Program-made: the position numbers and the translations under genes
The notes under the pieces: model-generated
What the model saw: only the letters and a program-made list of their open reading frames with translations
The model's database searches: none
Told to the model about the DNA's origin: nothing
In this document: piece after piece, positions 8,904 to 60,875 of the stretch
How positions within the stretch are numbered: position 1 is the stretch's first letter
Layout of the letters: each line of letters opens with the position of its first letter
Assembly (NCBI GenBank): GCA_000181795.3
Contig: CM012953.1
Location: 318,211-382,210 of the forward strand
DNA: 64,000 bases
DNA from: Trichinella spiralis
Lineage: Eukaryota; Nematoda; Enoplea; Trichinellida; Trichinellidae
Direction of reading: 5' to 3'

Positions 8904-10547
8904 TTACATTGCCTGGCTTACGGCCTGAATCAGTTGCGCTTGATTCACTTTGAAATCAAATGCTGCAAATAATGCGTTTTCTAGAACTTCAAATTGAGCG
9001 TTGCTAATTTGTGTGTTCTGTGAGGCCATTGGAAAGCCATCGGTAAGGAATTTTCGCAGACTCGTTTCCAAAATTTGCTTCGTGTAATCAGAAAAGTGAT
9101 TCAAACTAGCTTGATCAGCTTCGAGCTGATTTTCGGTCGGTTGGAAGGTCCATTTGTCAAATTGCATAGTTCCGGTGATAAGATTTCTTTTCGGCTTATT
9201 CGGCTTGACCAGCATTGAAAATTGTATATTGCCAACAATGGCACGAGATGCTGTGGATTCCGTTTTTCTTTTTGCCAAAACTTGAATCTCAAAATCGCCA
9301 AACAAGTGAATTGTACCGTTTTCAAAGCGCATTGCTGGTGGTTGGAGGAAATGAATTTTCACTTCAGGCTGTTGATCAGGAAATACTCTCGAGAACTCGG
9401 GTAGAACGTCAGTGATGCACACAGACTGTGGACAGGCAGTTTCGAAAAAGTATCCCATCCAGGGTGTTTCATTTTTGCTGAAAGTCATGTTGAACAATCC
9501 CAAATCGTAAAGCGTGTAAAGGAATGAATTTCCCACATAGTCAGATATGTAAATGTTCATCATGCGCTGCGGCGAGCGCAATTTTTTAGGAAGAGGTTTC
9601 GGATAGAATGGCATCTTACATCGACCCCGGGCACAGATCTGTCCATTCATTGGAATCGCTAAAAAGCTAGGCGACGAACTTACATACGGTGCGGCAACTA
9701 AACTCGGTCGAAACACCAGTGAATTTGATTTGATGTTGAATCTTTTTTGATTGCTAAGTGGCATCATTTTTACAATACGACGCATGAAATCAGGACTGAC
9801 AGGACTGCTGGATTTTCTGTCCAAAAGTGGCTTATCTTGAAATGGCATTTTCAGCATTGAAGACGCTCTGCTTGCAGCAGTGCCGATGTCGGTGCAAAGT
9901 TTGTCATTCAGCATGCCACGCACAATTTCTTCTATCCTTCTGGGACGATTCAGCGATACAACACCACGATACATCAACGCCACTTCATTAATATATGCAT
10001 CGCACTGAATGCCCAAAATAGTCAGCCCGCCTGAACGGTCCTTACCCAGACTGACAATCAAATTTCCTTGTATATCTAATAGTTCAGAAGTTACCATTCC
10101 AACATTGCGCCTGCGTAGCACATCGGACGTGGTGGTCACGTCGAGATTATCGAAAGTGATTTGGATAGAATTCGGGGCTCTCGGCTTGATGGCGAATCGT
10201 GCCTGTTGACCAACATCGATCACTTTAGTACCCACGAGATCAGTACTAGCTCCGGCTATGAAAACCCCATGCTTTTCCGGTATGCGAAGATTTTTAATAA
10301 CAGTCGAAACCACATTGCCCAACGATGATTGAATAGCGTTGAAAGCTCGATCAGTTAACATCAGCACAACGCCAGGATTGTTGGGCTTGCCGCCGTTCAG
10401 AAAATTATACACTTTAATACTGCGCTTAGCAGGCAGCAGGAATTTTCTACTGATCGGCTTGGATGAAATTTGATTCCGCTTAGTTGAAGCATGATGAACT
10501 AATGAAATCGCTTCACAGACGAGCAAGAAATAAACGAAGAACTGCAT
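8904..10547 (-). CDS. Secreted BPI/LBP/CETP-family protein (paralog 1)
   Basis: Single uninterrupted 547-codon frame on the minus strand. Residues 1-20 (MQFFVYFLLVCEAISLVHHA) form a signal peptide, so secretion is expected. Length and layout match the two-domain lipid-binding BPI/LBP fold. It aligns along its length with the protein at 15152-16804: NIYISDYVGNSFLYTLYDLG faces VNVYISDYVLNSLLYSLYEIG, and both carry PW..YFFET.C..SVCITD. A cysteine pair 36 residues apart (QCDAY...KLCTD) corresponds to the conserved disulfide of the N-terminal BPI barrel. Two further cysteine pairs (ICARGRC; ACPQSVC) are shared by both paralogs. Sequons NMT and NGT are present. By family, binding of lipid or lipopolysaccharide is likely, but the ligand is unknown. 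Absence of introns contrasts with most neighbours. Confidence 0.8.
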   Translation of the reverse strand: MQFFVYFLLVCEAISLVHHASTKRNQISSKPISRKFLLPAKRSIKVYNFLNGGKPNNPGVVLMLTDRAFNAIQSSLGNVVSTVIKNLRIPEKHGVFIAGASTDLVGTKVIDVGQQARFAIKPRAPNSIQITFDNLDVTTTSDVLRRRNVGMVTSELLDIQGNLIVSLGKDRSGGLTILGIQCDAYINEVALMYRGVVSLNRPRRIEEIVRGMLNDKLCTDIGTAASRASSMLKMPFQDKPLLDRKSSSPVSPDFMRRIVKMMPLSNQKRFNIKSNSLVFRPSLVAAPYVSSSPSFLAIPMNGQICARGRCKMPFYPKPLPKKLRSPQRMMNIYISDYVGNSFLYTLYDLGLFNMTFSKNETPWMGYFFETACPQSVCITDVLPEFSRVFPDQQPEVKIHFLQPPAMRFENGTIHLFGDFEIQVLAKRKTESTASRAIVGNIQFSMLVKPNKPKRNLITGTMQFDKWTFQPTENQLEADQASLNHFSDYTKQILETSLRKFLTDGFPMASQNTQISNAQFEVLENALFAAFDFKVNQAQLIQAVSQAM

Positions 10548-15150: not shown

Positions 15151-15156
15151 TTTATT
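15151..15156 (-). terminator. AATAAA overlapping the stop codon of the second BPI-fold gene
   Basis: On the minus strand the end of the gene reads CATAAATAAACC: the TAA stop at 15152-15154 lies inside an AATAAA hexamer. A second minus-strand AATAAA near 15033-15038 gives a more normal 3' untranslated length, so the overlapping one may be chance. Confidence 0.25.
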
Positions 15157-16804
15157 TATGACCGGAAACTGTAGCATTGACAGCATCAATAATGCGCTTT
15201 TCATCGATTTTGAAATCAAAAGCTGCCATTAACGCATCATCCATCATTTCCAATTTTAAATTAGTAATGTTTAGAAATGGAAGTGATATGACAAATCCTT
15301 GCCTAAAAACACGCGCCAAAGTGGTTTGAATCAACTGTTTCGTGTAATCAAAAAATGAGCTGGCTTCCTGCACATCTGCTTTTATGTAATTTTCTTGTAC
15401 TCGCATGTTCCACTGGTCAAAATTTACTGTTCCAGCCACATGATTTCGAGCTCTTGGTGCGTTGAGCTGAATTCGCATAATGAAATTACACTTTGCTATT
15501 AGTGCTTTCTTTGCAGGTGAACTGTCGTCAAGCTTAGCTGACAAAGTGGTCAAAAAGTCACCATAAAATCGGGCACCGTCTCGTCTAAATTGTACCGCTG
15601 GCGGTTTGGAAAATTCCATATAGATTTCTGGATTTTGTTCAGGAAATGTACTGCTAAAGCTAGGCAATAAATCCGTGATACAGACTGATTTAGCACATTC
15701 AGTTTCAAAAAAATAACTCAACCAAGGTACTTGTTTTTTGTTAAATGTAAGTCGAAAAGTTCCTATTTCATACAAAGAGTATAACAATGAATTGAGAACA
15801 TAATCGGATATGTACACGTTTACCATATAATTTCCATCGCGGACTCCTTGAGGAAGTGGAGTTGGATGGAATGGAATGTTGCAGCGTTGACGATGACAAA
15901 CTTTTCCAAGCAAAGGTATTGAAAAAGTTTGACTTGCAGTAGCTTGAATTGGGCCAGTCAAGCTGGGCTTGAAAATTAACGCTCGTCCAAGAACGTAAAA
16001 TCGTTTCTGATCTCTTAGCGGTAACAATTTGAATAATCTTTTCATTGATGAAATTGGCACAAGACCATGGCTATGAGGGTCGAGTAAAAATTGTTCTCCA
16101 AATGGCTTTTTTATATAGCCATTCATGTCAGATATCATTTTTCCAATAATGCTACACTGTTTCTGATTTATCTGCGTTTTTATTGCCCGTTCAATACGAA
16201 ATGGTCTTATTACAATTACATCTTTATCATTCGTATTGTAATGTATATGCACTAAATTGGTTCTAGCTTGACAATGTGTCATCTCAACATGAAGAGATCC
16301 ATTTGAATCCGGCTGCATGGTAAACACAAATTCACCGTTAACATTTTTAAGCTCAGTTTTAGCCACACCGTCACGTTTTGGTCCTCGGATATTGGTGCTG
16401 AGATGTATTTCCAAATTTTTCATTTCCACAGCAAGACCATTTGGCTCAACTGGCTGAATGTATACATTTCCTTCTTTTCCAAACTTTTCCACTTTACCAT
16501 CTAAAATTTCACCAGAAAACGGACCCATGTTCATATCCGGCTGCGGTGGAATGGTAAAAAATGGCACTATTGCTCGAAAAACACTGTTCGTTGACATGCT
16601 CAACTGTTGAAAACCTTTTGGAGTGATCACCGCCACCAAACCTGGCAAGCCAGCTTTGCCACGTTTAACAAAATCATAAACATCCGTTTTATAAGCATAA
16701 TTTAAATAGCCAGCTTTGTTTAAAGGTCGGAGGCTTTTTGCAGCAAAACTGATACTGCTCATGCAAGCTAACAATAACAGTAGCATTATTGGATGAAGCT
16801 GCAT
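15152..16804 (-). CDS. Secreted BPI/LBP/CETP-family protein (paralog 2)
   Basis: Uninterrupted minus-strand frame of 550 codons from the chosen start. The frame extends to 16870, but the methionine at 16804 is preferred because it begins a clean signal peptide, MQLHPIMLLLLLACMSSISF. The protein parallels paralog 1 throughout: a cysteine pair 39 residues apart (HCQARTN...KQCSIIG), then VCHRQRCNIPF, then ECAKSVCITDLLP. This conserved pattern supports two BPI-fold barrels and extracellular export. The same strand, intron-less structure and about 4.6 kb spacing suggest an ancient tandem duplication. Divergence is high enough that distinct ligands are possible. The family call is firm; the function of nematode members is not established. 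Confidence 0.8.
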   Translation of the reverse strand: MQLHPIMLLLLLACMSSISFAAKSLRPLNKAGYLNYAYKTDVYDFVKRGKAGLPGLVAVITPKGFQQLSMSTNSVFRAIVPFFTIPPQPDMNMGPFSGEILDGKVEKFGKEGNVYIQPVEPNGLAVEMKNLEIHLSTNIRGPKRDGVAKTELKNVNGEFVFTMQPDSNGSLHVEMTHCQARTNLVHIHYNTNDKDVIVIRPFRIERAIKTQINQKQCSIIGKMISDMNGYIKKPFGEQFLLDPHSHGLVPISSMKRLFKLLPLRDQKRFYVLGRALIFKPSLTGPIQATASQTFSIPLLGKVCHRQRCNIPFHPTPLPQGVRDGNYMVNVYISDYVLNSLLYSLYEIGTFRLTFNKKQVPWLSYFFETECAKSVCITDLLPSFSSTFPEQNPEIYMEFSKPPAVQFRRDGARFYGDFLTTLSAKLDDSSPAKKALIAKCNFIMRIQLNAPRARNHVAGTVNFDQWNMRVQENYIKADVQEASSFFDYTKQLIQTTLARVFRQGFVISLPFLNITNLKLEMMDDALMAAFDFKIDEKRIIDAVNATVSGHK

Positions 16805-16870
16805 CGTTAACAACCTTGCAAATGAAAAATACCAAAACCAAGTAGAAATTTCCAAGTGCAAACTAGACAA

Positions 16871-22634: not shown

Positions 22635-23487
22635 ATTGTCAAATTGTGTGAAAAAAGTGTTGAAAAAGAAAAAAAGATTTGAAAAATAATGCAGGAGCTC
22701 CGTGAGACAAAAAAAATACATTTAGGGTTCTGCGAGGATGAAATTGTTGAGAAACGCCTTATTAATACATATGAAATATTTGAAGTTAACATTCTTATCT
22801 ACATGACATGGTATTTCATCAATCAGCCAGTTTCGCATTGCTTTGCTACATTCCTGAATCATTTAGCAAAATATTGCAAAAGCGGTTTTTGTTTATAACA
22901 GGATAGAGTTTACGAATTGAAATATATGCATAAATCAGAGACGTGCTAATTGTTCTGAAAATAAATTACTGATGTATTGATATTAATAATAAACTCAGAT
23001 TTCACGTGACTTCACATAATTTTACATGATCTCGGTTTAAACAATGTTATATGAGCAATTAATCACAGTAACGGACACATGCGCATAAAAGAAAAGCTGA
23101 AAAAGCAAAATATAAAAATAAAAAACTATATTAAATATAATAAACTACATTTTCATTCAATTGTGTTGAGTAAACAACAGACTGTCAAACAAAAACAACA
23201 GAAAACCTAAAAACAGCTAAAAATTTTTTTATTAAAATAGAAGTCATGAATGTATTGGTATCTTACCCAACAAAATATATACATAATAAACAGTAATACT
23301 GTATATAAGTAGATGCGCGCTGTACTATTCTGTAGAATAAAAAAGTAAAAAAAATAAATCACGTTTTTAGAGCTATTTATTTTAGAATGAATTATAATAA
23401 AAAATATTTTATATTTAAGTTTTTAAAAAAGCAGTGTTTTTTGCATTTATTAAATCAAAATTTATTAAATTTCTTAAGTCTTAAAAT
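22635..23487 (+). repeat. Host-type direct repeat, copy 1 (intact)
   Basis: 853 bases of AT-rich sequence recur at 28919-29057 plus 32710-33398. The two copies differ by scattered substitutions and an indel of roughly 27 bases near 23160. This copy keeps the uninterrupted site (AATACATATGAAATATT near 22764-22780) at which the gypsy palindrome sits in copy 2. It ends at the first base of the BEL/Pao LTR. Confidence 0.85.
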
Positions 23488-24420
23488 TGTTCCGAACGGA
23501 ACAACACCGACCCAGTCGGTGTGACCTGGCCAAGGGCTGGTGCCCAGAAGTCGCGGGTAGGCCAAGAACAATACCCGCGCATCGCCGGCCAGATCGCTAT
23601 CTGGGCGTCTGGAGGCTCTGAGTCGGGGTCAGAGAGGCCCCCTGCTGCGCCCCGATCTATCGTCGTTCGCGAGACAATGGCGAGTGCGCCATAGCGGCGA
23701 TGGCAGTGAGATCATAGGGCATGGAAATGGTCATTATGACGTGACCATTAAGGGATTAGCGCAAGATCATAAGATCTGAACCATAACAACATAATTGAAG
23801 ACCGACAAGGCTTTAGATCGGCGCCGGAGATAGGGAGCGTTCCCGCGGTGAGCGAGCTGCCTATTGGTGGTTCGCGTTGGGTCGACTGCGGGACCGCCGA
23901 CCCTGGCCCTATATACAGGGATAGAAAGTGCGCCGCGCGATATAAGCGTCAGTTGGACGATTGTTGTACGAGAGGACGAATTGGTTGCGAGAAGTTGGCT
24001 TAGAATACGTGGTATGCAGTACTGGTTGTCAGTATTGCCGGTATTCCGAAGAGACGAGTTGGGAAGTCTGGACGAACCGAGTCGAAGTGCAACCGAAGGA
24101 CGATCGAGCGAGGGACTCGTACGTATCGTATTGAAAGGCATTCGAATTACTGTTAGGGACAACGGTAGTAGCTCGGGTATTCGTACACTTCGAGCGTTTA
24201 GTCGCAACGTATAGTGTCAGTGGAGTCAGGGAACCGGAAGACGTCCGTGAAGGAGACCATCATCGACAAGAGTTTTGGAGACCCTAAATGCAGTCCACGC
24301 CGTGGAAGATACACCTGATCCACCCTAATTATACAGTCCACTTACGTTTGGCCGGACGAACGAACGTCTGGTCAATTTGTACCTGAAAGTTAGATTACTG
24401 TTGCGATTCTGACTCTAACA
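23488..24420 (+). repeat. BEL/Pao long terminal repeat, plus orientation
   Basis: A 933-base GC-rich unit starts TGTTCCGAAC at the junction with AT-rich host sequence and ends GACTCTAACA just before a primer binding site, so the ends are the expected TGTT..AACA. A TATA-like CCCTATATACAGGG lies near 23910. Parts of the same LTR recur reversed at 26930-27401 and 28392-28918. Open frames inside it are not taken as genes. Confidence 0.8.
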
Positions 24421-24421
24421 T

Positions 24422-24439
24422 TGGTCCTCCGAGTCGGAT
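24422..24439 (+). other. BEL/Pao primer binding site
   Basis: TGGTCCTCCGAGTCGGAT begins one base after the LTR end. A sequence starting TGG that could pair with a tRNA 3' end ending in CCA is what primes minus-strand synthesis. I cannot assign the tRNA. Confidence 0.6.
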
Positions 24440-24475
24440 CAATCGAAAACCAGCGATCTATAGATAGTAAATACC

Positions 24476-26050
24476 ATGGCATCATCTGCGAAATCACGGA
24501 GCAAGAAACCCGTGGCCCTCAAGGATCGGCTGAACCGATTGTTGGCAGAACTGGATGAGTTGTGCATCACATCCGCCGATGTCTTTGAGGTGGAGGAGCA
24601 GGTCTTCTTAATGGAGGAGTCGTTCCGGGCCGCAGACGCACTCCAAACAGAAGTGGAGCTGGATCTGGAAGGCGAAGAGCGGCAAGCCGCGATAGATGAC
24701 TGGGCGTTATGTCGCCAGAACTACCGTGAGGGAAAGACTCGAGCACGCGCAAGGATGGTTGAGGCGCGCGGAGAAGGTCCCATCGGTAGCTGCAATGTTA
24801 GCGCGGGCATGCCTGCGGTCCGGTCCAGCAATGGGAGGTTGCCGGAGGTGACTCTCCATAAGTTTACGGGGAAGGCGTTGGAATTCCCTTCCTTTTGGGC
24901 CCAGTTCGAGGCAAATGTGCACAAACGGAGTGACCTGGACAACGCCACCAAATTCACCTACTTGTTGTCCAACACAGAAGGGACGGCGCGGAATGCCATT
25001 GAAGGAATCCCTCTCACTCCAGAGAACTACACCCAGGCCGTCGACATCTTGAAGAAGCGTTTTGGTCGGCCGAGACAGGTGATACGCAAGCATTTGGCGG
25101 CCCTATGGAGGGAGCCAGTGTGTCGCGAGATGACGACGAGGGGCATCCAGTCACTGGTGGATGAAGTGACGAAACACCTGCGTTGTCTCACTGCTCTGGA
25201 CAGAAATCCGTTTGTTGGCCATCTCCCCGCAAGCGAGGTCTTGATGCCCATGTTGCTGGACAAGTTTCCCCCTGCATTGGTAAAGGCCTGGGACACAAAC
25301 ATCGGGCCGGATGCTGCCGAGGACGAAGACAACTTACAGAAGTTTCTGGAGTTCGCCCAGTGGCAGGCGAATCTGCTCGCCAAGTCAAAGGGAGAAGACG
25401 CGAAACCACCTGCAGCGAAGTCAGAGCAACGGACGCCCTCGTCGAAACCGTCGCGTCCTGAATTGACGTATGGGGATCGCATCCGGTCTACAGCGGCCGC
25501 GTTGGCGGTGGTCGCCACTAGAAGCTGCCTGTTCTGTAGCGGGGAGCACAAGGAAAAGGAATGCGAGAAGTTCCTACAGGCGGATCTGTCCAGGAGGAGA
25601 GACATGGTGCGAGCTAAGAATGTCTGCTTCAACTGTTTATCAACCGGTCATCGGGCGAGAGAATGTCCAAAGGAGCGCCGCTGTGGTGTGGACGGATGTC
25701 GCCAGGCGCATCATCGGCTCCTTCATCCGCCCTCGACGAGGGAATCGACACGGTCTTCAGAGTCTGACCGCACCCACCAGGGTCTTTTGGTCGTGCGAAG
25801 CACCTCTGGGAAAGGACTCCAGACCGCCCGTGCTTGCGCTTATGGGCGAAACGGAAACTATGTGATGGTGAATTGCTTGCTTGACACGAGGGCCGCAGTC
25901 TCCTTCATCCGGAAGGACGTGGCGAAAGCCCTCGGGCTCAACGGGTCCCATGAGTGTTGTCGCTTCACGACATTGGGAGGTCGTGTGCGGCCTGAGTGCC
26001 GATGGCGCAGAGTGGAATTCCGGCTTGGAGCAGTGGGAGGCTCAAGCTGA
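24476..26050 (+). CDS. BEL/Pao gag and start of aspartic protease
   Basis: A 524-codon frame begins at ATG in ATACCATGGC, 36 bases past the primer binding site. Residues about 1-110 are charged and helical. A DUF1759-type gag core follows (LPEVTLHKFTGKALEFPSFW, then NATKFTYLLSNTEGTARNAI). Near residue 350 come cysteine-histidine motifs: CLFCSGEHKEKEC, CFNCLSTGHRAREC and CGVDGCRQAHHRLLH, typical of Pao elements. The protease begins about residue 455 with NCLLDTRAAVSFI; the active triad is DTR rather than DTG or DSG, so it is probably inactive. The frame then ends and continues only as broken pieces. This gag acts in capsid assembly of a retrotransposon particle. Confidence 0.8.
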   Translation: MASSAKSRSKKPVALKDRLNRLLAELDELCITSADVFEVEEQVFLMEESFRAADALQTEVELDLEGEERQAAIDDWALCRQNYREGKTRARARMVEARGEGPIGSCNVSAGMPAVRSSNGRLPEVTLHKFTGKALEFPSFWAQFEANVHKRSDLDNATKFTYLLSNTEGTARNAIEGIPLTPENYTQAVDILKKRFGRPRQVIRKHLAALWREPVCREMTTRGIQSLVDEVTKHLRCLTALDRNPFVGHLPASEVLMPMLLDKFPPALVKAWDTNIGPDAAEDEDNLQKFLEFAQWQANLLAKSKGEDAKPPAAKSEQRTPSSKPSRPELTYGDRIRSTAAALAVVATRSCLFCSGEHKEKECEKFLQADLSRRRDMVRAKNVCFNCLSTGHRARECPKERRCGVDGCRQAHHRLLHPPSTRESTRSSESDRTHQGLLVVRSTSGKGLQTARACAYGRNGNYVMVNCLLDTRAAVSFIRKDVAKALGLNGSHECCRFTTLGGRVRPECRWRRVEFRLGAVGGSS

Positions 26051-26929
26051 CCGGACGCAAGCACCATGGTGAAGGCGCTTGCAATTCCTCGGGTATGTGG
26101 CGAGGTCCAAGCATGGCCGGCGGAGTCCTCAGACGGGGCACCGTCAAGGACCGTACCCGAGGGGGGACAGCGGCAAGGAACGTCGCTCATCGTCGATGTA
26201 CTGGTCGGCATCGACTACTATTACGAGCTCGTGACCGGTCGCATTCGAAGAGCGACCGGTGGGTCAGTAGCCGTGGAGACCCGCCTTGGGTGGATCACGT
26301 GCGGGAGAGCCGCCCGAAGACGGAGCTCGAAGGATCGTATGGAAATCTCCGTGTTGGGAAGGTCAGAGGCTGCGTGGAACGGGAGCGTCGACTATGGAGA
26401 GTTGACGTCCGGTGGGGGGGGGGCGTTGGCAGTTTGGGCCAGCCGGTGGCAAGTCGCCGCATGGGAGCGTTTGCCATCCAGCGGATCCGCGAGAAGATCC
26501 GACAGGGGGAGATGGACATATCGGACAAGTCGCATAAGGCGGCTGTCACCAAGATGACGCGGCGGCAATGGCCGCCCATAGGAGTGCGGATAGAGATCGA
26601 CTACTTTGGCTTCGTCACCGGTCGTATGAGAAGAAGAGCGACCGGCGGTCCAGTAGCGTTGGAGGCGCTATTCGGCTGGGTAGCTCGTGGAAGAGCAAGC
26701 CCCAGGTGGACTGCTGAAGTGGGAACCTTCCTGACGAATTCTGGGAAATCCGCCGATGTGTCGTGGCGGAAAACCGGGAGAATCGAGGCAGTGAAGATCG
26801 TTCCGGAAGAAAACGTTCCAGAAGGGAACAAGGAGGCTCTGGAGAAGCGCGAGGAGACCGAGACGTCGGGTGTAGAGAAGAGTCAGGTCAGTCTTCCGCG
26901 TTGCTCAGGTCAACGAGGCCTCCATAACA
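26051..26929 (+). pseudogene. Broken BEL/Pao protease/pol remnant with a duplicated motif
   Basis: Downstream of gag the Pao protease region survives in shifted frames. It carries VLVGIDYYYELVTGRIRR followed by GG.VAVETRLGW near 26190-26300, a motif typical of this family. A second diverged version, IEIDYFGFVTGRMRR then GGPVALEALFGW, follows at about 26590-26680. A run of ten G near 26412-26421 lies between them. No reverse transcriptase is present before the block is cut at 26929 by a reversed LTR end. Confidence 0.6.
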
Positions 26930-27401
26930 TGTTAGATTCAGAATTGCAACAGTAACTTACTTTCAGGTACAAATTGACCAGACATTCGTTCGTCCGGCCA
27001 AACGTAAGTGGACTGTATAATTAGGGTGGATCAGGTGTATCTTCCACGGCGTGGACTGCGATTAGGGTCTCCAAAACTCTTATCGATGGCGGTCTCCTTC
27101 ACGGACGTCTTCCGGTTCCCTGACTCCGCTGACACTATACGTTGCGACTAAACGCTCGAAGTGTACGAATACCCGAGCTACTACCGTTGTCCCTAACAGT
27201 AATTCGAATGCCTTTCAATACGATACGTACGAGACCCTCGCTCGATCGTCCTTCCGTTGCACTTCGACTCGGTTCGTCCGCACATCCCAACTCGTGTCTT
27301 CGGAATACCGGCAATACTGCCAACCAGTACTGCATACCACGTATTCTAAGCCAACTTCTCGCAACCAACTCGTCCTCTTGTACAACAATCGTACAACTGA
27401 T
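26930..27401 (-). repeat. Reversed BEL/Pao LTR fragment (3' LTR of an internally deleted copy)
   Basis: Reading on the minus strand, this is the 3' part of the Pao LTR ending at its true U5 terminus (TGTTAGATTC on the plus strand at 26930). At 27401 it is joined directly to gag sequence instead of to the U3 half. Confidence 0.7.
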
Positions 27402-28336
27402 GGTGGTTTCGCGTCTTCTCCCTTTGACTTGGCGAGCAGATTCGCCTGCCACTGGGCGAACTCCAGAAACTTCTGTAAGTTGTCTTCGTCCTCGGCAGCA
27501 TCCGGCCCGATGTTTGTGTCCCAGGCCTTTACCAATGCAGGGGGAAACTTGTCCAGCAACATGGGCATCAAGACCTCGCTTGCGGGGAGACGGCCAACAA
27601 ACGGATTTCTGTCCAGAGCAGTGAGACAACGCAGGTGTTTCGTCACTTCATCCACCAGTGACTGGATGCCCCTCGTCGTCATCTCGCGACACACTGGCTC
27701 CCTCCATAGGGCCGCCAAATGCTTGCGTATCACCTGTCTCGGCCGACCAAAACGCTTCTTCAAGATGTCGACGGCCTGGGTGTAGTTCTCTGGAGTGAGA
27801 GGGATTCCTTCAATGGCATTCCGCGCCGTCCCTTCTGTGTTGGACAACAAGTAGGTGAATTTGGTGGCGTTGTCCAGGTCACTCCGTTTGTGCACATTTG
27901 CCTCGAACTGGGCCCAAAAGGAAGGGAATTCCAACACCTTCCCCGTAAACTTCGGGAGAGTCACCTCCGGCAACCTCCCATTGCTGGACCGGACCGCAGG
28001 CATGCCCGCGCTAACATTGCAGCTACCGATGGGACCTTCTCCGCGCGCCTCAACCATCCTTGCGCGTGCTCGAGTCTTTCCCTCACGGTAGTTCTGGCGA
28101 CATAACGCCCAGTCATCTATCGCGGCTTGCCGCTCTTCGCCTTCCAGATCCAGCTCCACTTCTGTTTGGAGTGCGTCTGCGGCCCGGAACGACTCCTCCA
28201 TTAAGAAGACCTGCTCCTCCACCTCAAAGACATCGGCGGATGTGATGCACAACTCATCCAGTTCTGCCAACAATCGGTTCAGCCGATCCTTGAGGGCCAC
28301 GGGTTTCTTGCTCCGTGATTTCGCAGATGATGCCAT
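27402..28336 (-). pseudogene. Reversed, truncated BEL/Pao gag fused to LTR sequence
   Basis: The minus-strand frame starts with the same MASSAKSRSKKPVALK as the plus-strand gag and matches its first 312 or so codons with a few substitutions. It stops matching at AKPP, just before the cysteine-histidine motifs. Reading then continues into LTR sequence to 27215 without a family domain. The two gag copies form inverted arms of about 935 bp. This is a non-autonomous, internally deleted derivative; it lacks zinc knuckles, protease and all pol functions. Confidence 0.75.
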
Positions 28337-28372
28337 GGTATTTACTATCTATAGATCGCTGGTTTTCGATTG

Positions 28373-28390
28373 ATCCGACTCGGAGGACCA
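28373..28390 (-). other. Reversed BEL/Pao primer binding site
   Basis: The reverse complement of the 24422 site, again one base from the LTR edge, so the reversed unit has the same 5' end structure. Confidence 0.55.
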
Positions 28391-28391
28391 A

Positions 28392-28918
28392 TGTTAGAGT
28401 CAGAATCGCAACAGTAATCTAACTTTCAGGTACAAATTGACCAGACGTTCGTTCGTCCGGCCAAACGTAAGTGGACTGTATAATTAGGGTGGATCAGGTG
28501 TATCTTCCACGGCGTGGACTGCGATTAGGGTCTCCAAAACTCTTGACGATGATGGTCTCCTTCACGGACGTCTTCCGGTTCCCTGACTCCGCTGACACTA
28601 TACGTTGCGACTAAACGCTCGAAGTGTACGAATACCCGAGCTACTACTGTTGTCCCTAACAGTAATTCGAATGCCTTTCAATACGATACGTACGAGACCC
28701 TCGCTCGATCGTCCTTCTGTTGCACTTCGACTCGGTTCGTCCGCACATCCCAACTCGTGTCTTCGGAATACCGGCAATACTGAAAACAAGTACTGCATAC
28801 CACGTATTCTAAGCCAACTTCTCGCAACCAACTCGTCCTCTTGTACAACAATCGTCCAACTGACGCTTATATCGCGCGGCGCGCTTTCTAGCCCTATATA
28901 TAGGGCCAGGGTCGGCTG
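28392..28918 (-). repeat. Reversed BEL/Pao 5' LTR, truncated
   Basis: Minus-strand LTR from its U5 end at 28392 (TGTTAGAGTC) for 527 bases. It matches the plus-strand LTR up to the TATA-like CCCTATATATAGGG and the CCGACCC just beyond. The remaining U3 is missing, and the sequence switches abruptly to the second copy of the host repeat at 28919. Confidence 0.75.
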
Positions 28919-29057
28919 ATTGTCAAATTGTGTGAAAAAAGTGTTTAAAAAGAAAAAAAGATTTGAAAAATTATGCAGGAGCTCCGTGAGACAAAAAAAA
29001 AATACATTTAGGGTTCTGCGAGGATGAAATTGTTGAGAAACGCCTTATTAATACATA
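28919..29057 (+). repeat. Host-type direct repeat, copy 2, left part
   Basis: Matches the first 139 bases or so of 22635-23487 and ends with CATA, which is repeated at 32706-32709 on the far side of the inserted gypsy structure. Confidence 0.8.
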
Positions 29058-29623
29058 TGTAACATCTATTGCTGCACGACGGCGTTGCTAATTGCAGGTC
29101 CAGCTGAGGCAGACGCCGAACCGCGGCAATAAACCCTCCCTTCCCGCCAGTTCAAATGATACCGCCAGCGAGAACCGCGGTCGGCTTCTGGCGACCAACC
29201 CGCATGACCCGACGAGCCGGTGCTTAACCAGCCGGCGTTCAGCGTGGCGTTCGGTCACCGCCGGTCACTGATGGTCCGTTGGGGCAGCGGATCAAAGCCG
29301 CCGCGTAATAACCCGCTGATTTATAGAAGAGCCGCAAGCCGGGGTAGTGTCAGCAGGACAATGGAGGGATCGAATTTCAGTTGACCCACCCCGGTGCCCC
29401 CCTGCGGCGGAATACTTCTATATATAGAAGCGGCGGAGACCATCACGGAGTTATCGAGCGGACGAGTGTGGAGTGCAGTTGTGGCGACGATACGAGAGCG
29501 GATGATGGCGACACGAAGGAGAGAACGCGGGAGCGAAGACGAGTCGGCGAAGAGTAACAGCGGCGGACGAACTGGCGGAGACCTGGATGCAGATCGAGCG
29601 GCCGCGCCCAGCGGGTCGTTACA
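29058..29623 (+). repeat. Ty3/gypsy LTR, left arm
   Basis: 566 bases with matching ends TGTAAC and GTTACA. A TATA box (CTATATATAG) lies near 29418-29427. The ATG pair at 29502 and 29505 lies downstream of the TATA, inside the LTR. A primer binding site candidate follows one base later. Confidence 0.75.
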
Positions 29624-30902
29624 ATGGGGGCCTGTCCGGGAACCCGTACCAGTACCTTCACGCGGAGCATACTTCTACCCGCCTCCGGCATTTGGCCCGG
29701 GAATGGATGCCGAAGAGTGGGTGGAGAACCTGGAAGACTTCCTCCGCGCCAGCGGGGTACCAACGATGGATCATGGAGCTGTCGGACGACGCCTACTGAC
29801 GGCCCCGGTGCGCCGTGAGCTCTACCCACCCGGACAAGTGAGGGACTACTCTTTCGAGGAGCTGAAGAAACGGCTGCTAAACGCGTATGGTCCCGAGGAG
29901 TCGCTGGAGATGTTGACGGACCGATTCCACGCTCTGCGACAACGCGAAGGCCAATCCATCCAGCAGTTCGCCCAGGAGGTGGCAGAGTTGGGACGCAGAG
30001 CGGGTGTGTCAGAACGCGACCTCGTGAGGCGTTTTAGCGGTGGGGTAACGTCGAAAGAAGTCTACCGGGCGATCCGGCTGCAGGAACCGCCGACCCTCGC
30101 CGAAGCTCGAAAGCTGGCCACCAGGATACTCCAGGTGGAGGACGGCTACCAGGAGAAGCAACAGCCCCGCGCCGGCGTCGCGAAGACAGAGAAGTCGGAG
30201 ATGGCAGAGAAGATGGACGCCATGATAAGGGAAATGGACAACCTGGCCAAAAGAATGGAACAGTTGGAACGGGCCGCGCCACGGCCCCCCAGGACCGCAC
30301 CCGGATGCTTCCGTTGTGGCAGCCTGGACCGCCTCCGGCGAGACTGCCCCCAGCTCCGGACCCGAACCCGGCCAGCGCACGCCATGAACAATGGACACGG
30401 GGACCGCCGCCTTTTAGCGATGACAGAGCTCCAAGCTGGACATGCGCCGTCTGTAGCAGGTAAGCTAAACGGGCTGGAGATTTCCCTCCTTCTGGACAGC
30501 GGGGCGGTTGTCTCTGTAGTACCACTCTCGACCTGGCACAAGTCCACCGGGGGAGAACCTCTAGAAGCCGCCGGAGGCTGCATCCTGCTCGGCGACGGGC
30601 GACGAGTGCGCCTCTGCGGCCAGGGGACGTTGCCGCTGCAGTTGGGAAGCTGGAAAGGACGCCTCCACGTCGCCGTTGTGGAAAGCTTGGTCGGACCAGG
30701 GATCCTGGGTACCAACTTTCTCGACCGGTACGTCAAGCTAATTGACTGGCAAGCCGGGGAGATGACCATGACAGACGGCTCGAGTGTCCGGATCGTCCAC
30801 GAACCATCCCACGCAACGCGGCCCGGCATCGGATGCACCTGGATCACGGCGAACCCCCGGGAAGTATCACGAGACCGTAGGGGAGAGACCAGGGAACAAT
30901 AG
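29502..30902 (+). CDS. Ty3/gypsy gag-protease
   Basis: The open frame runs from 29394, but the TATA box near 29418 makes the methionines at 29502 or 29505 the likely start (about 466 residues). The gag core includes FYPPPAFGPGMDAEEWVENL and repeated ELGRRAGVSERDLVRRF-type helical segments. A zinc knuckle near residue 272, CFRCGSLDRLRRDC, has arginine where histidine is expected. An aspartic protease follows with LLLDSGAVVSVV (intact DSG) and VGPGILGTNFLDRY, which is the second protease landmark. The first 40 or so codons are encoded by the LTR. The polymerase continues in the +1 frame. Product: capsid and protease of a retrotransposon. Confidence 0.72.
   Translation: MMATRRRERGSEDESAKSNSGGRTGGDLDADRAAAPSGSLQWGPVREPVPVPSRGAYFYPPPAFGPGMDAEEWVENLEDFLRASGVPTMDHGAVGRRLLTAPVRRELYPPGQVRDYSFEELKKRLLNAYGPEESLEMLTDRFHALRQREGQSIQQFAQEVAELGRRAGVSERDLVRRFSGGVTSKEVYRAIRLQEPPTLAEARKLATRILQVEDGYQEKQQPRAGVAKTEKSEMAEKMDAMIREMDNLAKRMEQLERAAPRPPRTAPGCFRCGSLDRLRRDCPQLRTRTRPAHAMNNGHGDRRLLAMTELQAGHAPSVAGKLNGLEISLLLDSGAVVSVVPLSTWHKSTGGEPLEAAGGCILLGDGRRVRLCGQGTLPLQLGSWKGRLHVAVVESLVGPGILGTNFLDRYVKLIDWQAGEMTMTDGSSVRIVHEPSHATRPGIGCTWITANPREVSRDRRGETREQ
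29625..29640 (+). other. Ty3/gypsy primer binding site candidate
   Basis: TGGGGGCCTGTCCGGG starts one base after the LTR end, the standard position for a tRNA-primed site. The tRNA is not identified. The site lies inside the open gag frame. Confidence 0.5.
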
Positions 30903-31527
30903 CGGTGAGCTAGGAGCGTGTGAACGCGCTCTGGTGGACAGAGCGGAGTGTTCCGCGCAGAATCGGCGAACCCTACGCAGCCTAATCCGGAGGTACGGGA
31001 AGGCCATCTCATGCGGTGAGGGTGATCTCGGACGAACGAGCCTTGTCCAGCACCGCATCGAGACTGGAGGGGCCCAGCCAGTGAAGCTTCCACCCCGTCG
31101 CCTCCCACAGGCCCAGCGGGAGACAGTGGACCGCTTGATCAGGGAAATGCTGCATGCCGGGGTAATCGAACTAGCCTCAGGCCCCTGTAGCTCACCGGTA
31201 GTGCTGGTCTGAAAGAAGGACGGATCCCCACGGTTCTGCGTTGACTATCGCAGGCTGAATGCCGTGACACGCGTCGACGCTCAACCCATCCCGCGCATAG
31301 ACAATACGCTGGATGCGCTAGCGGGGGCCAAGTGGTTCAGCACTCTGGACTTAGCGTCCGGCTACTGGCAAGTCGAAGTCGCCGAAGAAGACCGGGAGAA
31401 GACCGCGTTCTCCACACACATGGAGCTCTTCCAATTCCGCGTCATGCCGTTCGGGCTGTGCAATGCCCCGGCGACGTTTCAGCGGCTGATGGAAAAAGCC
31501 CTGAGGGGATTGACGTGGAAGACGTGA
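30784..31527 (+). pseudogene. Ty3/gypsy reverse transcriptase, 5' part, with stop codon
   Basis: The pol frame overlaps the end of gag-protease in the +1 frame. Landmarks are [63 protein letters not shown] (catalytic aspartate of motif A) and [20 protein letters not shown] at 31210-31212 interrupts it between VVLV and KKDG, where other gypsy elements usually have arginine or tryptophan. It is cut before the YxDD box by the reversed gag arm. RNase H and integrase are absent, so the copy is not autonomous. Confidence 0.75.
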
Positions 31528-31544
31528 CGCGGACGGCATGACGC

Positions 31545-32139
31545 GTCCATCTTCTCGGCCATCTCCGACTTCTCTTTCTTCGCGACGCCGGCGCGGGGCT
31601 GTTGCTTCTCCTGGTAGCCGTCCTCCACCTGGAGTATCCTGGTGGCCAGCTTTCGAGCTTCGGCGAGGGTCGGCGGTTCCTGCAGCCGGATCGCCCGGTA
31701 GACTTCTTTCGACGTTACCCCACCGCTAAAACGCCTCACGAGGTCGCGTTCTGACACACCCGCTCTGCGTCCCAACTCTGTCACCTCCTGGGCGAACTGC
31801 TGGATGGATTGGCCTTCGCGTTGTCGCAGAGCGTGGAATCGGTCCGTCAACATCTCCAGCGACTCCTCGGGACCATACGCGTTTAGCAGCCGTTTCTTCA
31901 GCTCCTCGAAAGAGTCGTCCCTCACTTGTCCGGGTGGGTATAGCTCGCGGCGCACCGGGGCCGTCAGTAGGCGTCGTCCGACAGCTCCATGATCCATCGT
32001 TGGTACCCCGCTGGCGCGGAGGAAGTCTTCCAGGTTCTCCACCCACTCTTCGGCATCCATTCCCGGGCCAAATGCCGGAGGCGGGTAGAAGTATGCTCCG
32101 CGTGAAGGTACTGGTACGGGTTCCCGGACAGGCCCCCAT
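31545..32139 (-). pseudogene. Reversed gypsy gag fragment (right arm)
   Basis: On the minus strand this repeats the gag of the left arm, with a few substitutions, from the LTR edge through VEDGYQEKQQPRAGVAKKE to AEKMDA. There it breaks and joins the reverse transcriptase of the other arm. No zinc knuckle or protease is present on this arm. Confidence 0.75.
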
Positions 32140-32705
32140 TGTAACGACCCGCCGGGCGCGGCCGCTCGATCTGCCTCCAGGTCTCCGCCAGTTCGTCCGC
32201 CGCTGTTACTCTTCGCCGACTCGTCTTCGCTCCCGCGTTCTCTCCTTCGTGTCGCCATCATCCGCTCTCGTATCGTCGCCACAACTGCACTCCACACTCG
32301 TCCGCTCGATAACTCCGTGATGGTCTCCGCCGCTTCTATATATAGAAGTATTCCGCCGCAGGGGGGCACCGGGGTGGGTCAACTGAAATTCGATCCCTCC
32401 ATTGTCCTGCTGACACTACCCCGGCTTGCGGCTCTTCTATAAATCAGCGGGTTATTACGCGGCGGCTTTGATCCGCTGCCCCAACGGACCATCAGTGACC
32501 GGCGGTGACCGAACGCCACGCTGAACGCCGGCTGGTTAAGCACCGGCTCGTCGGGTCATGCGGGTTGGTCGCCAGAAGCCGACCGCGGTTCTCGCTGGCG
32601 GTATCATTTGAACTGGCGGGAAGGGAGGGTTTATTGCCGCGGTTCGGCGTCTGCCTCAGCTGGATCTGCAATTAGCAACGCCGTCGTGCGGCAATAGATG
32701 TTACA
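32140..32705 (-). repeat. Ty3/gypsy LTR, right arm (reversed)
   Basis: 566 bases, exactly the length of the left LTR and nearly identical to it, in opposite orientation so that its U3 end also faces outward. Confidence 0.8.
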
Positions 32706-32709
32706 CATA

Positions 32710-33398
32710 TGAAATATTTGAAGTTAACATTCTAAGCTACATGACATGGTATTTCATCAATCAGCCAGTTTCGCATTGCTTTGCTACATTCCTGAATCAC
32801 TTAGCAAAATATTGCAAAAGCGGTTTTTGTTTATAACAGGATAGAGTTTACGAATTGAAATATATGCATTAATCAGAGACGTGCTAATTGTTCTGAAAAT
32901 AAATTACTGATGTATTGATATTAATAATAAACTCAGATTTCACATGACTTCACATAATTTACATGATCTCGGTTTAAACAATGTTATATGAGCAATTAAT
33001 CACAGTAACGGACACATGCGCATGAAAGAAAAGCTGAAAAAGCAAAATATGAAAATAAAAAACTATATTAAATATAATAAACTACATTCTCATGCAAATA
33101 AAAACAACAGAAAACCTACAAACAGCTAAAAAATTTTTTTATTAAAATATAAGTCATGAATGTATTGGTATCTTACCGAACAAAATATATACATAATAAA
33201 CAGTAATACTGTATATATGTAGATGCGCGCTGTACTATTCTGTAGATTAAAAAAGTAAAAAAAATGAATCACGTTTTTAGAGCTATTTATTTTAGAATGA
33301 ATTATAATAAAAAATGTTTTATATTTAAGTTTTTAAAAAAAGCAGTGTTTTTTGCATTTATTAAATCAAAATTTATTAAATTTCTTAAGTCTTAAAAT
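32710..33398 (+). repeat. Host-type direct repeat, copy 2, right part
   Basis: Resumes the sequence of copy 1 just after the insertion site and follows it to CTTAAAAT. There copy 1 runs into the BEL/Pao LTR, whereas this copy continues into ordinary AT-rich DNA. Confidence 0.8.
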
Positions 33399-46239: not shown

Positions 46240-46560
46240 AATTCATCAGATGCTAACAACTTAGTATTTGTCACTCCTTGGTTAAGCTTGAAAGCTGCAA
46301 CTGTGAACAATTTGTCACNTGTGCATTCTNCCCTTTGTATTAAAATCGCCTTTACCAACATATGTGATGTGACGAAGAAAAAGCGAAGAATGTTTGANAN
46401 AGGCNTATGCNTTTAATCATGCGTAAAATTAAATGAAATTGCGAGCTAACACGTAACGTTAGCATTAGTGCCATTTGTAACCCGAAAATTGGAAGTGTTG
46501 CCACAGCATTCCAGATTTTTCAAACAGATTATTCAGTATTCTGATATTACCACCCGGAAA
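46240..46560 (+). repeat. Unclassified interspersed repeat, copy 1
   Basis: Shares GATGCTAACA, ACAATTT.TCA, CCCTTTGTA.TT.AAT and GCCATTTGT with 48640-49290 and 61120-61690, in the same orientation. It contains several ambiguous bases. Confidence 0.4.
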
Positions 46561-47152
46561 GTTAACATCCAATCTTGATAAATTTCAACAAGGCAACAAA
46601 TTTATTTACAAACAGTCAGAGCAGATTTATATATCAGGAGGNANATCTNTACTAGACCATTGTTGGCTGTTCTTTACTGTTCTTGCTGCTGCTATTGGTT
46701 AGTGAAAAATAAAATCACCATTTAATTTATTTTTTTGTATTGTTTTTTTCTGAATTATGACTATCGCATTTTGATATAACCGTCACTTTGGTACAATAAA
46801 ATATAGAATAATGATAAAAAATTATTTTTCGNGAATGCTGGATCANGAAAAAAGTAATAAAACTTNCACCCACCAAATAATATATTTNAAATAAACAGAA
46901 TTTTCNAATGAATGACAAAACTTCAAACAAACAATTAAAATTTTTGGAANTATATAAATATTTCCCATTTTTTATGTTACGTCACTATTATTAAAGTTAC
47001 GTAATCCTAAATGGAATATTTGAAACCAATGAAATGAAAAAATATTACAGCTAATCACAACTGAAGAAGTTTGAATTCAATGAGCAATTAGTACAAAGAA
47101 AAACCAATACGANGAAACNANNTCNNNGCNCAANNAAAANGAAANNCNAATA
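46319..47152. other. Low-quality sequence with scattered N bases
   Basis: Isolated N calls occur from 46319 to about 47152, densest at 47113-47149. Frames here are unreliable and no gene is called. Confidence 0.9.
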
Positions 47153-59415: not shown

Positions 59416-60875
59416 TCAGAAGTTAATCGGCTCAGGGACATCATACGCAACAGCTTTTAAGAACTGCTCCATTGTACGCGTTCCGCCATCATATTCAGCA
59501 GTCAACGCTGTTATGCGTAGCTGCACCTCTTCATATTTACTGTTCTTTATTCGTAAATCGTTGGCGGTAACGCGTCCTGACGTCACCTGCTGAATCAACG
59601 TTTCCGTTGATCCTTGCTCATCAATCAGCAATTGGAGCAGTTCATAAAAGCTGAGGTGATGTTTCCCCGCTTGCCGGTTCATTTTCAAGTGCCAACCTTC
59701 TAAGTGATTATTTGTTCGTGTCTGTACATTATATACATTCCATAACGGCAGCTTGTTGGGGGTCATCCATTCTCTTCGGAAGTAATCAAACAAGGCTGCT
59801 ATTAGACCCGTAACGTTTCTGCCAAGCAGACCCACGGCAGCAGGTACCTCAGGAAGTGGCAAAAATGCTGTTGCCATCAGCATTTTGATCTTCTTTTTTG
59901 TTTCCGCTTCGTGAAGGTACCTGGTTCACAATCCAAGCTCTGCCACTTTCCGCAGAACTGCTTGGCAGAAGTGAAAATAGCAACCTTGTATTTGAACGCC
60001 CGGGAACGATGCCTGCACCGCAGGGATAAAGGCAGTTTCGAAATCGCAAATCACAGTTTGCGGCTGAAGGACAACCCCTAACGCTGCCGCTTTTAAAATT
60101 AAATTATCGAAAATTTCATGATATGTTGGGAGATCTCTTCTAACTGTTAAACAATATACAAGTGGTATTAATTTACCTTCTTTAAACACATGAATGCTGA
60201 ACATCTGATGGTACCATTCAGGAACAATTTTAAATGTTCCATCCATGCACCAGACAGTATGTCCAGCCAACTCCCGTATATTTTCATCTGTACAAAATAT
60301 TAAAACAGAATTATGTACATTATTATACATCAAAAACTGCCGGCCAGACTTCGTAACACGCCATTGTGCTGGAATTTCCAGCTGCTGGCGTGTTGCTGGC
60401 AGTGGTGGAAAACGTTTGGCCCGGCTTCTGTACATGGCCGCTTCCACTTTTTTGTATGTTGGAAACTGACTAGCAGTTTCCAAACTGGTGGATGCATTGC
60501 TACATTCTTCGTTATATATCTGCGGCACTGGCTTTGTTTCCTCCCCTGCGCGGCGTTAAAGAGTGTTCTTCTTCTCCATTTTATACAATATGTAGTCGTC
60601 GGCAGTGCACGTTACTGCATGCGGTGCTGTTCTCAAAACCGTGTTTACTTCGAGGTTGGTGTAAACTGTACCTCTACATCCACTTCTCACCTGCATGAGA
60701 AATCAGAATGCTGACTGATAAAAATAGCATATTATAATAATGAAATATTATTTACCCGTTGGCAAACCCACTGTTTGTCTTCAAAATTTGTGTGTCTTAG
60801 GAGATGAACTCTACCTTCATACACTAAGTTGTAGTTATTTCGATTATTTAAAACCAAATGCAAATCAGCAGCCAT
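59416..60875 (-). pseudogene. FLYWCH-MULE transposase with two premature stops
   Basis: Exon 1 (60756-60875) and exon 2 (59416-60690) give one frame of 464 codons interrupted only by TAA at 60556-60558 and TGA at 59926-59928. The FLYWCH finger spans the intron: NLVYEGRVHLLRH, QWVCQR, then SGCRGTVYTN and APHAVTC. The MULE catalytic core is complete: MDGTFKIVPEWYHQM (first D), VICDFETAFIPAVQ (second D), GCYFHFCQAVLRKV (C..H motif) and TNNHLEGWH (E). The FLYWCH finger is expected to bind the terminal repeats. Relative to the copy at 49478, the second stop replaces an arginine codon (AGA there). A product might still arise by read-through, but inactivity is likelier. Confidence 0.8.

Follow-up and report, generated by a model that had tools for sequence, protein, structure and literature searches.

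Aberrant inverted DNA is known from retroviral autointegration, whose products are circles or branched forms, or internal inversions made by integrase. Among LTR retrotransposons, chimeric elements of the Triticeae have been attributed to aberrant template switches during reverse transcription; as described there, these complex elements entered in one step with a target-site duplication (TSD) of normal length and closely similar outer LTRs, and combine two same-strand elements that have a third LTR in common and ordinary outer ends (Sabot and Schulman, 2007; PMC1950507). In retroviruses, strand-displacement-assimilation and copy-choice recombination let cDNA strands switch between co-packaged templates, also in plus-strand synthesis, and the switches described in that source keep polarity and give no inverted like-ended product (PMC3187697). 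At double-strand breaks, inverted templated insertions, most of them about 5–34 bp long, are reported to be produced by foldback and completed by end joining (PMC11724301). The element analysed here (Y) occupies positions 29058-32705 of the window, the whole 64,000-nucleotide stretch of Trichinella spiralis DNA under analysis, and adjoins a second inverted element, X (23488-28918). Like the Triticeae elements, Y has the TSD of a single integration and highly similar outer LTRs; unlike them, its parts are inverted instead of being same-orientation parents around a shared LTR, and its two ends are one and the same terminus. Its inverted, like-ended form sets it apart from the retroviral switches as well, and it is linear and integrated through two U3 ends, unlike the products of autointegration. 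Like foldback insertions, its junction carries short stretches copied in inverted form from close by, but foldback insertions arise at chromosomal breaks and would not alone account for a TSD and a U3 at either end.

Y is an inverted cDNA of a Ty3/gypsy-like element, arranged as LTR-gag-protease-RT, a short filler and an inverted gag-LTR. The left arm (29058-31526, forward strand) resembles C1:15572664-15577629 up to position 31526 and comprises the left LTR (29058-29623, forward strand, compared with other genome copies) followed by an A and the PBS-like TGGGGGCC, an open frame with gag (29394-30902, forward strand; Retrotrans_gag PF03732, E 2.7e-7), and protease and RT that were named by eye. 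The right arm (31543-32705, reverse strand) holds the start of gag, within the open frame 31479-32369 (reverse strand; PF03732, E 2e-8), and the right LTR (32140-32705, reverse strand). Both frames were scanned against Pfam and gave no domain besides gag. The LTRs, 566 bp each, face each other with their U3 termini outward, so that TGTAACATCTATT reads outward at both outer ends of Y. The arms (29055-30220 and 31543-32708) are inverted and 99.06% complementary across 1166 nt, ten substitutions separating them (10/1149 compared sites), and the outer LTRs show 4 differences at 562 compared sites. Y ends within RT, and its label gypsy-like is given from the gag; besides the Retrotrans_gag-type gag of both arms the label agrees with LTR ends TGTAAC...GTTACA, with the PBS-like site beside U5 and with a PPT-like AAAGGGGGGAGTAG that lies directly before the 3' LTR, abutting U3, at locus L081.

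Y lies within one copy of a duplicated 853-bp sequence whose two copies directly border X on either side. Copy A (22635-23487, 853 nt) contains an empty CATA site (22768-22771), and copy B runs from 28919 to 29057, is interrupted by Y, and resumes at 32710-33398. CATA flanks Y on the left (29054-29057) and on the right (32706-32709); when the flanks are joined they leave a single CATA and align to copy A (aligned range 22635-23488), with the alignment running straight through the insertion point. A 4-bp TSD is also found in ordinary insertions of the same family or close relatives (L004, CATT; L013, ACTG; C1:17741-17744k, GCGT). More generally, ordinary copies from this family or related ones (C1:19164408-19169281, C1:17741-17744k and the solo LTRs L004, L013, L032-L035, L053 and L059) share the TSD lengths and resemble Y in their LTR termini, whereas, unlike Y, they have one U3 and one U5 end. 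Given a TSD typical of the family, an empty sister site and two intact U3 termini, we are highly confident that Y arose by one-step integration of a two-U3 molecule. This was the reading of the initial annotation, and its particulars held: two U3 ends (TGTAAC outward), facing 566-bp LTRs, a 4-bp CATA duplication, an empty site in the sister repeat and an internal junction near 31530-31545, here located at 31526/31543. Points that it does not mention are that X is inverted as well, that the sister repeat is the duplication bordering X, and that further same-ended insertions exist. Two separate head-to-head insertions were ruled out, as one CATA pair brackets the whole of Y and no host sequence lies at its centre. 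A DNA transposon with long inverted repeats was likewise ruled out, the arms being LTR-gag with a PBS and the two scanned frames giving gag alone.

Two further readings of the locus were weighed against this evidence. That an ordinary insertion turned into a palindrome after integration, whether by inverted duplication, by gene conversion or by another insertion from the same family, is very improbable: rearrangement of palindromes and nested insertions does occur, the locus has had an eventful history, as X shows, and the R-U5 copies of X look mosaic, but neither end of Y has a U5 while both have CATA, the sister copy retains the empty site, an inversion at a later time would need a breakpoint precisely on the border of LTR and TSD, and two more same-ended insertions also have TSDs of family length. 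An assembly artefact, either a palindromic chimera or a collapsed repeat, we consider slightly less probable still. N runs do occur at other LTR loci of the assembly, among them L032, L037, L040 and L042; on the other hand, the interval 22-34 kb contains zero N (the window's 29 Ns all lie at 46319-47148), the arms of Y differ by substitutions, the TSD is perfect and faces an empty site, and same-ended cases occur twice more elsewhere.

At the centre of Y, RT sequence, a templated filler and gag follow one another without LTR ends. The filler (31527-31542) consists of two short inverted copies, from sources at 31436-31444 (9 nt) and 31438-31450 (13 nt), 76-90 nt away, and the copies extend a few bases into both arms; a match of 13 nt was reached by 0/5000 shuffles. 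Such a filler is as compatible with template switching as with the foldback end-joining of broken cDNAs. In the latter case, a pair of double-stranded cDNAs that were incomplete or broken but retained an intact U3 end each would be fused at their breaks by host alternative or foldback end-joining, and integrase would insert the dimer via the U3 ends. This origin is possible, though unlikely. The copies that form the filler come from near the left break, inverted templated insertions made by foldback are reported at breaks (PMC11724301), and the differing variants of the Y arms suit two molecules. The same origin would, however, need the very short fragments of the two cases described below as partners. 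The absence of an LTR terminus at the centre also bears on autointegration, in which a cDNA end attacks DNA of the element itself, giving a product that is subsequently integrated. An exact U5 terminus within X adjoins what reads as pol sequence, a junction such as integrase would make, but the inner junctions of Y and of both other same-ended insertions have no LTR terminus, and the circular or branched products of autointegration are not linear molecules with two outward U3 ends; we hold this to be the least probable of all the origins considered.

The initial annotation had proposed testing for other insertions with two U3 ends, and one was found at C14:9847-11266 (the C14 case), together with a U5-U5 insertion at C1:17000234-17003247 (the mirror case). 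The C14 case is flanked by CCAT, and its second U3 arm is just 48 nt long and meets gag at 8-12 nt of microhomology, which fits what would be expected of a barely started plus strand. The mirror case belongs to a BEL/Pao-like family, assigned by similarity of LTR, pol and CCHC region to X without a Pfam scan, and is flanked by GATAT; its short arm of 143 nt is joined to gag and is 95.9% like its own 3' LTR, compared with at most 92.3% for 12 other listed loci. Fragments of 48 bp of U3 and 143 bp of U5 fit nascent strong-stop strands better than end-joining partners, unless a palindrome centre was later deleted. All three insertions combine exact termini with a TSD of family length (4 bp in Y and the C14 case, 5 bp in the mirror case), and none has one U3 and one U5 end. 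Genome sequence thus indicates, for two different families, that two like ends suffice for the integrase of an LTR retrotransposon to carry out a normal concerted insertion in a germ line. The class comprises these three TSD-flanked cases from a small and directed survey. Among 98 BEL-type gag matches, no convergent pair within 5 kb was present besides X, and L042, an initial candidate, was dropped because it is a fragment of U3 next to a gap. In the open-licence papers searched, no retroelement insertion of U3-U3 or U5-U5 type was seen to be described, which is weak evidence of absence.

Strand switching in reverse transcription is probably, with considerable reservation, the source of the two-U3 molecule. 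If several cDNAs were present in one particle, a plus strand begun at the polypurine tract would have U3 as its 5' end; on losing its template it could copy another plus strand backwards to the latter's own U3 end, and the product would be a duplex with U3 at both ends. Integrase would recognise the termini TG...CA that the two LTR ends share (TGTAAC at U3, GTTACA at U5) and join both U3 ends to staggered cuts 4 bp apart. As a general rule, a growing cDNA strand that switches onto a strand of its own polarity would acquire two like ends, with plus strands starting at U3 and minus strands at U5; applied to minus strands the rule therefore predicts U5-U5 insertions, of which one was found. Of the earlier suggestion of an aberrant inverted cDNA made by template switching, the inverted cDNA stands, and template switching is the likeliest cause, although end-joining of two broken cDNAs would give the same product. 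Three of the ten differences between the Y arms match variants that separate L081 from the C14 case (P 0.002-0.010). The distribution of variants hints, not cleanly, that more than one template took part, and in Y this comes from three sites.

X is an inverted BEL/Pao-like element with a gag of DUF1759 type, which marks BEL/Pao elements, and a CCHC knuckle (PF03564 and PF00098). It has one intact U3 end (23488), and its other end is broken ~10 nt upstream of a TATA-centred palindrome (28916). Its inner piece, an inverted R-U5 (26929-27413, reverse strand), has an exact U5 terminus at one end, stops at the other near a TCAGT motif located 39 nt beyond the point where TATATA begins, and resembles minus-strand strong-stop DNA in having about the same ends; that it stops about where such DNA does speaks against end-joining. 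The R-U5 copies of the outer arms differ from each other at 18/526 sites and from the inner piece at 26/485 and 20/485 sites, while the gag arms differ at 4/989 (outer R-U5 vs gag, P 7e-6), a further hint of more than one template. Among states absent from six other copies, four are common to the right and inner copies (24053-24115) and four to the left and right copies (23956, 24029, 24260, 24405), so that a clean tree of the three copies was rejected, 4 sites vs 4. Gene conversion after insertion would also yield this mosaic, which therefore lowers confidence in strand switching. The divergence of the gag arms disagrees with that of the flanking copies A and B (19/824; P 0.0004), and age is therefore not used as an argument. 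The break in L081 lies ~12 nt upstream of the TATA-centred palindrome, and those in L058 and L083 just downstream; the idea that X and L081, with their 'truncated U3' ends, mark a single defined RNA 5' end was rejected, as only loose clustering remains.

Same-ended insertions would constitute a genomic record of strand-switching errors in reverse transcription together with their molecular ends. In Y, two facing LTR promoters lie over a long inverted gag and would therefore make hairpin RNA, and palindromes of this kind may be sources of silencing RNA. Mu killer in maize is a precedent for an off-switch of its own family. For Trichinella spiralis, a proposal exists of silencing through a Dicer/RdRP pathway that includes RNA-directed DNA methylation (PMC4323106). 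A wider proposal, which we regard as speculative and rather improbable, is that like-ended insertions are a regular class, in which strong-stop or longer nascent DNA mis-transfers to a strand of its own polarity, giving U3-U3 from plus and U5-U5 from minus strands, and is taken up by integrase as readily as normal DNA, and that hairpin RNA from Y-like loci is a natural off-switch for the family. LTR finders that rely on two direct LTRs would miss such insertions; the search rule gained is to look for elements that lie between TSDs and have either U3 or U5 at both ends. Separately, an inverted repeat of 95% to 75% was seen at C1:19229.4-19239 kb, and U5 pieces face each other at C2:10582824/10583324.

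The inverted Ty3/gypsy-like insertion, Y (29058-32705), carries a U3 terminus at both ends, as the initial annotation had proposed: both copies of the target duplication CATA, read from the sequence at 29054-29057 and 32706-32709, adjoin U3 termini, the left one reading TGTAACATCTATT... after CATA and the right one being the complement of the same end, followed by CATA. The opposed LTRs (29058-29623 and 32140-32705) are indeed of equal length (566 bp), and self-comparison of the window gives inverted arms of 1166 nt (29055-30220 and 31543-32708) that are 99.06% complementary. The left LTR is followed, after a single base, by a PBS-like sequence (TGGGGGCC); the left arm then continues from LTR through gag, protease and RT (the last two assigned by eye) to 31526, and the right arm, past a filler of about 16 nt, comprises only an inverted gag start and LTR. 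Retrotrans_gag was detected in both arms by Pfam scan and the gag frames are open in both. Y looks like a dead copy because the remainder of pol is missing; a hairpin RNA from its opposed promoters is a predicted possibility.

With Y removed and its flanks fused, the sequence aligns to 22635-23488, where there is a single CATA and the sequence is unbroken at the insertion point, so that the reported duplication and empty sister site were recovered. Duplications of 4 bp also accompany ordinary insertions of the same family or close relatives (CATT at the solo LTR L004, ACTG at L013, GCGT at the two-LTR element at C1:17741-17744 kb); at L010 and L015, only 3 of the 4 flanking positions agree. 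An event after integration could be proposed as the origin of the palindrome, but it would require a cut precisely at the LTR/TSD border, which makes the one-step integration of a two-U3 molecule, as first suggested, nearly certain from the family-length TSD, the unbroken empty site and the U3 at both ends.

The 14 contigs of the genome searched total 53.1 Mb; three are large (20.0, 17.5, and 15.3 Mb), in line with the three chromosomes of Trichinella (PMC13334664). A search with the Y LTR gave 42 matches and a second two-U3 insertion: C14:9847-11266 consists of a full LTR, gag and an inverted U3 stretch of 48 nt; CCAT lies at either side, and 8–12 nt are common to gag and U3 at the junction. 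A related BEL-type LTR (46 matches) revealed the mirror case at C1:17000234-17003247, with U5 at both ends and GATAT flanks, in the order 143 nt of inverted U5, gag and pol (both forward) and a complete 3' LTR. Its gag sequence resembles the CCHC region of X, the neighboring inverted element, and its short arm is 95.9% identical to its own 3' LTR vs. at most 92.3% to the 12 other loci listed. The ends of 20 further LTR insertions (6 + 14) were inspected; 10 have an exact family-length TSD (L004, L013, L032-L035, L053, L059 and the two-LTR elements C1:19164408 and C1:17741581), all with one U3 and one U5 end, and in the remaining 10 the TSD is absent or partial, or the flanks are too short on one or both sides. 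Like-ended insertions, those with the same LTR terminus at both ends, thus make up 3 of 13 with exact TSDs, a fraction not usable as a rate because the sample is directed and small. By coordinates alone, the 98 genome matches to BEL-type gag include a single pair that converges within 5 kb, X, and the 15 to Retrotrans_gag likewise a single one, Y. Two further arrangements were seen. At C1:19229446-19239000, gypsy-like gag and RT form an inverted repeat whose gag sides face the center (95% falling to 75%); it may represent an inverted duplication or, alternatively, an old U5-U5 insertion. At C2:10582824-10583650, two opposed U5 pieces have 353 bp between them.

Cereals have complex insertions formed by template switching and bounded by single TSDs (PMC1950507); those described there are not inverted, unlike Y, which shares the single TSD. 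Plus-strand recombination is known in retroviruses (PMC3187697). No description of a like-ended genomic insertion was found in the open-access literature searched, which lacks most of the subscription journals in which earlier work on retroviruses is to be expected.

Plus-strand synthesis is initiated at the PPT and yields a product beginning with U3; minus-strand synthesis is initiated at the primer site and yields one beginning with U5 (PMC3187697). In L081, a normal-orientation copy of Y's family, AAAGGGGGGAGTAG directly precedes the TGTAAC of U3, at the PPT position. A growing cDNA strand would switch onto another strand of its own polarity and copy that template back to its 5' end, giving U3-U3 from plus strands and U5-U5 from minus strands. 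Y, C14:9847-11266 and the mirror case all fit such switching, and the short arms of the latter two (48 and 143 nt) have the size expected of just-started strands. In Drosophila, retrotransposon cDNA is a substrate of alternative end-joining, and the joining of two cDNAs could also have produced a like-ended molecule. The filler at the Y junction contains two inverted copies, of 31436-31444 and of 31438-31450, and none of 5000 shuffled versions of the 21-nt stretch there reached a 13-nt match. Such a filler is a template-switch signature, equally producible by foldback insertion with end joining, which makes inverted templated copies (PMC11724301). The template-switching cause first suggested therefore stands as the likeliest but not the only one: like ends and filler agree with it, the same filler comes from the foldback route, and we consider strand switching by reverse transcriptase the probable source, with some reserve, and end-joining of two cDNAs rather unlikely.

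X (23488-28918) is a BEL/Pao-like inverted element with a DUF1759 gag. Its left arm (LTR-gag-pol) starts at an intact U3 terminus and extends up to 26928; an inner piece of inverted R-U5 (26929-27413) has the exact U5 terminus at one end, reaches at the other to about a TCAGT motif located 39 nt beyond the start of TATATA, and has the outline of minus-strand strong-stop DNA; the right part, inverted gag and R-U5, is broken off at 28916. X lies exactly between the two copies of a duplication, A (853 nt, 22635-23487) and B (828 nt, 28919-33398 once Y is subtracted).

The arms of Y differ at 10 of 1149 sites, and comparison with L081 and C14:9847-11266 showed that 3 of the 10 carry the two states separating these copies (P 0.002–0.010; about 0.26–0.47 expected under the same model). 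The outer arms of X differ at 18 of 526 sites in R-U5 vs. 4 of 989 in gag (P 7e-6), and its inner R-U5 differs from them at 26 and 20 of 485. These variants point to more than one template. States absent from six other copies were then compared among the three R-U5 copies of X (23956-24405, 26929-27413, and 28391-28916): four are common to right and inner (24053, 24065, 24069, 24115), four to left and right (23956, 24029, 24260, 24405), and none to left and inner alone. The three copies are a mosaic whose variants do not sort cleanly, a pattern to be expected either from recombination in reverse transcription or from patchy post-insertion gene conversion; because of it, our confidence in strand switching was lowered slightly and that in end-joining raised slightly. 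Copies A and B differ at 19 of 824 sites, more than the gag arms of X (P 0.0004) or the arms of Y (P 0.012), which also speaks against a simple history; A and B may derive from two different homologues, or conversion may have acted on the arms.

L081 (C1:15572664-15577629; also L008, L003) has one intact end (U5); its 5' LTR is without most of U3, the TATA palindrome lying 12 nt downstream of the LTR start. The element is flanked by a duplication of 494 bp, 98.4% identical. In the BEL-like L058 (C1:11532480-11533466), the U3 start is joined to inverted gag and the right end is broken in R-U5; no flanking duplication was seen in the 3.1 kb examined. The TSDs seen are short in elements with two intact LTR ends, and the two long duplications seen belong to elements with one broken end; we read the one-broken-end elements as joined at one end by integrase and at the other by repair.

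TATA-centered palindromes (such as CTTCTATATATAGAAG) occur in LTRs of both families (23906-23920, 29417-29432, L058:1628-1643), and four LTR breakpoints fall no more than about 30 nt away. At C1:12553426-12553724 an R piece abuts a U5 terminus that is exact and inverted, resembling the inner X junction. The BEL-type LTRs L044-L049, L053, and L060 align to X in U3 (about positions 1–450) and little or not in R-U5; this suggests that U3 was exchanged at the R boundary or that R-U5 changes faster. At C1:18844174-18847165 a BEL-type internal region lies beside a gypsy-type and a BEL-type U3 piece, apparently a mixed or nested element. Elsewhere in the window, all on the - strand, LBP/BPI/CETP-domain frames occupy 8904-10547 and 15152-16870, and a MULE transposase domain (PF10551) lies at 59926-60528. 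The product of the 15152-16870 frame, an LBP/BPI-like protein, shares 97% identity with a protein of Trichinella murrelli and 80% with one of T. pseudospiralis (2 proteins, E ≤ 0.001).
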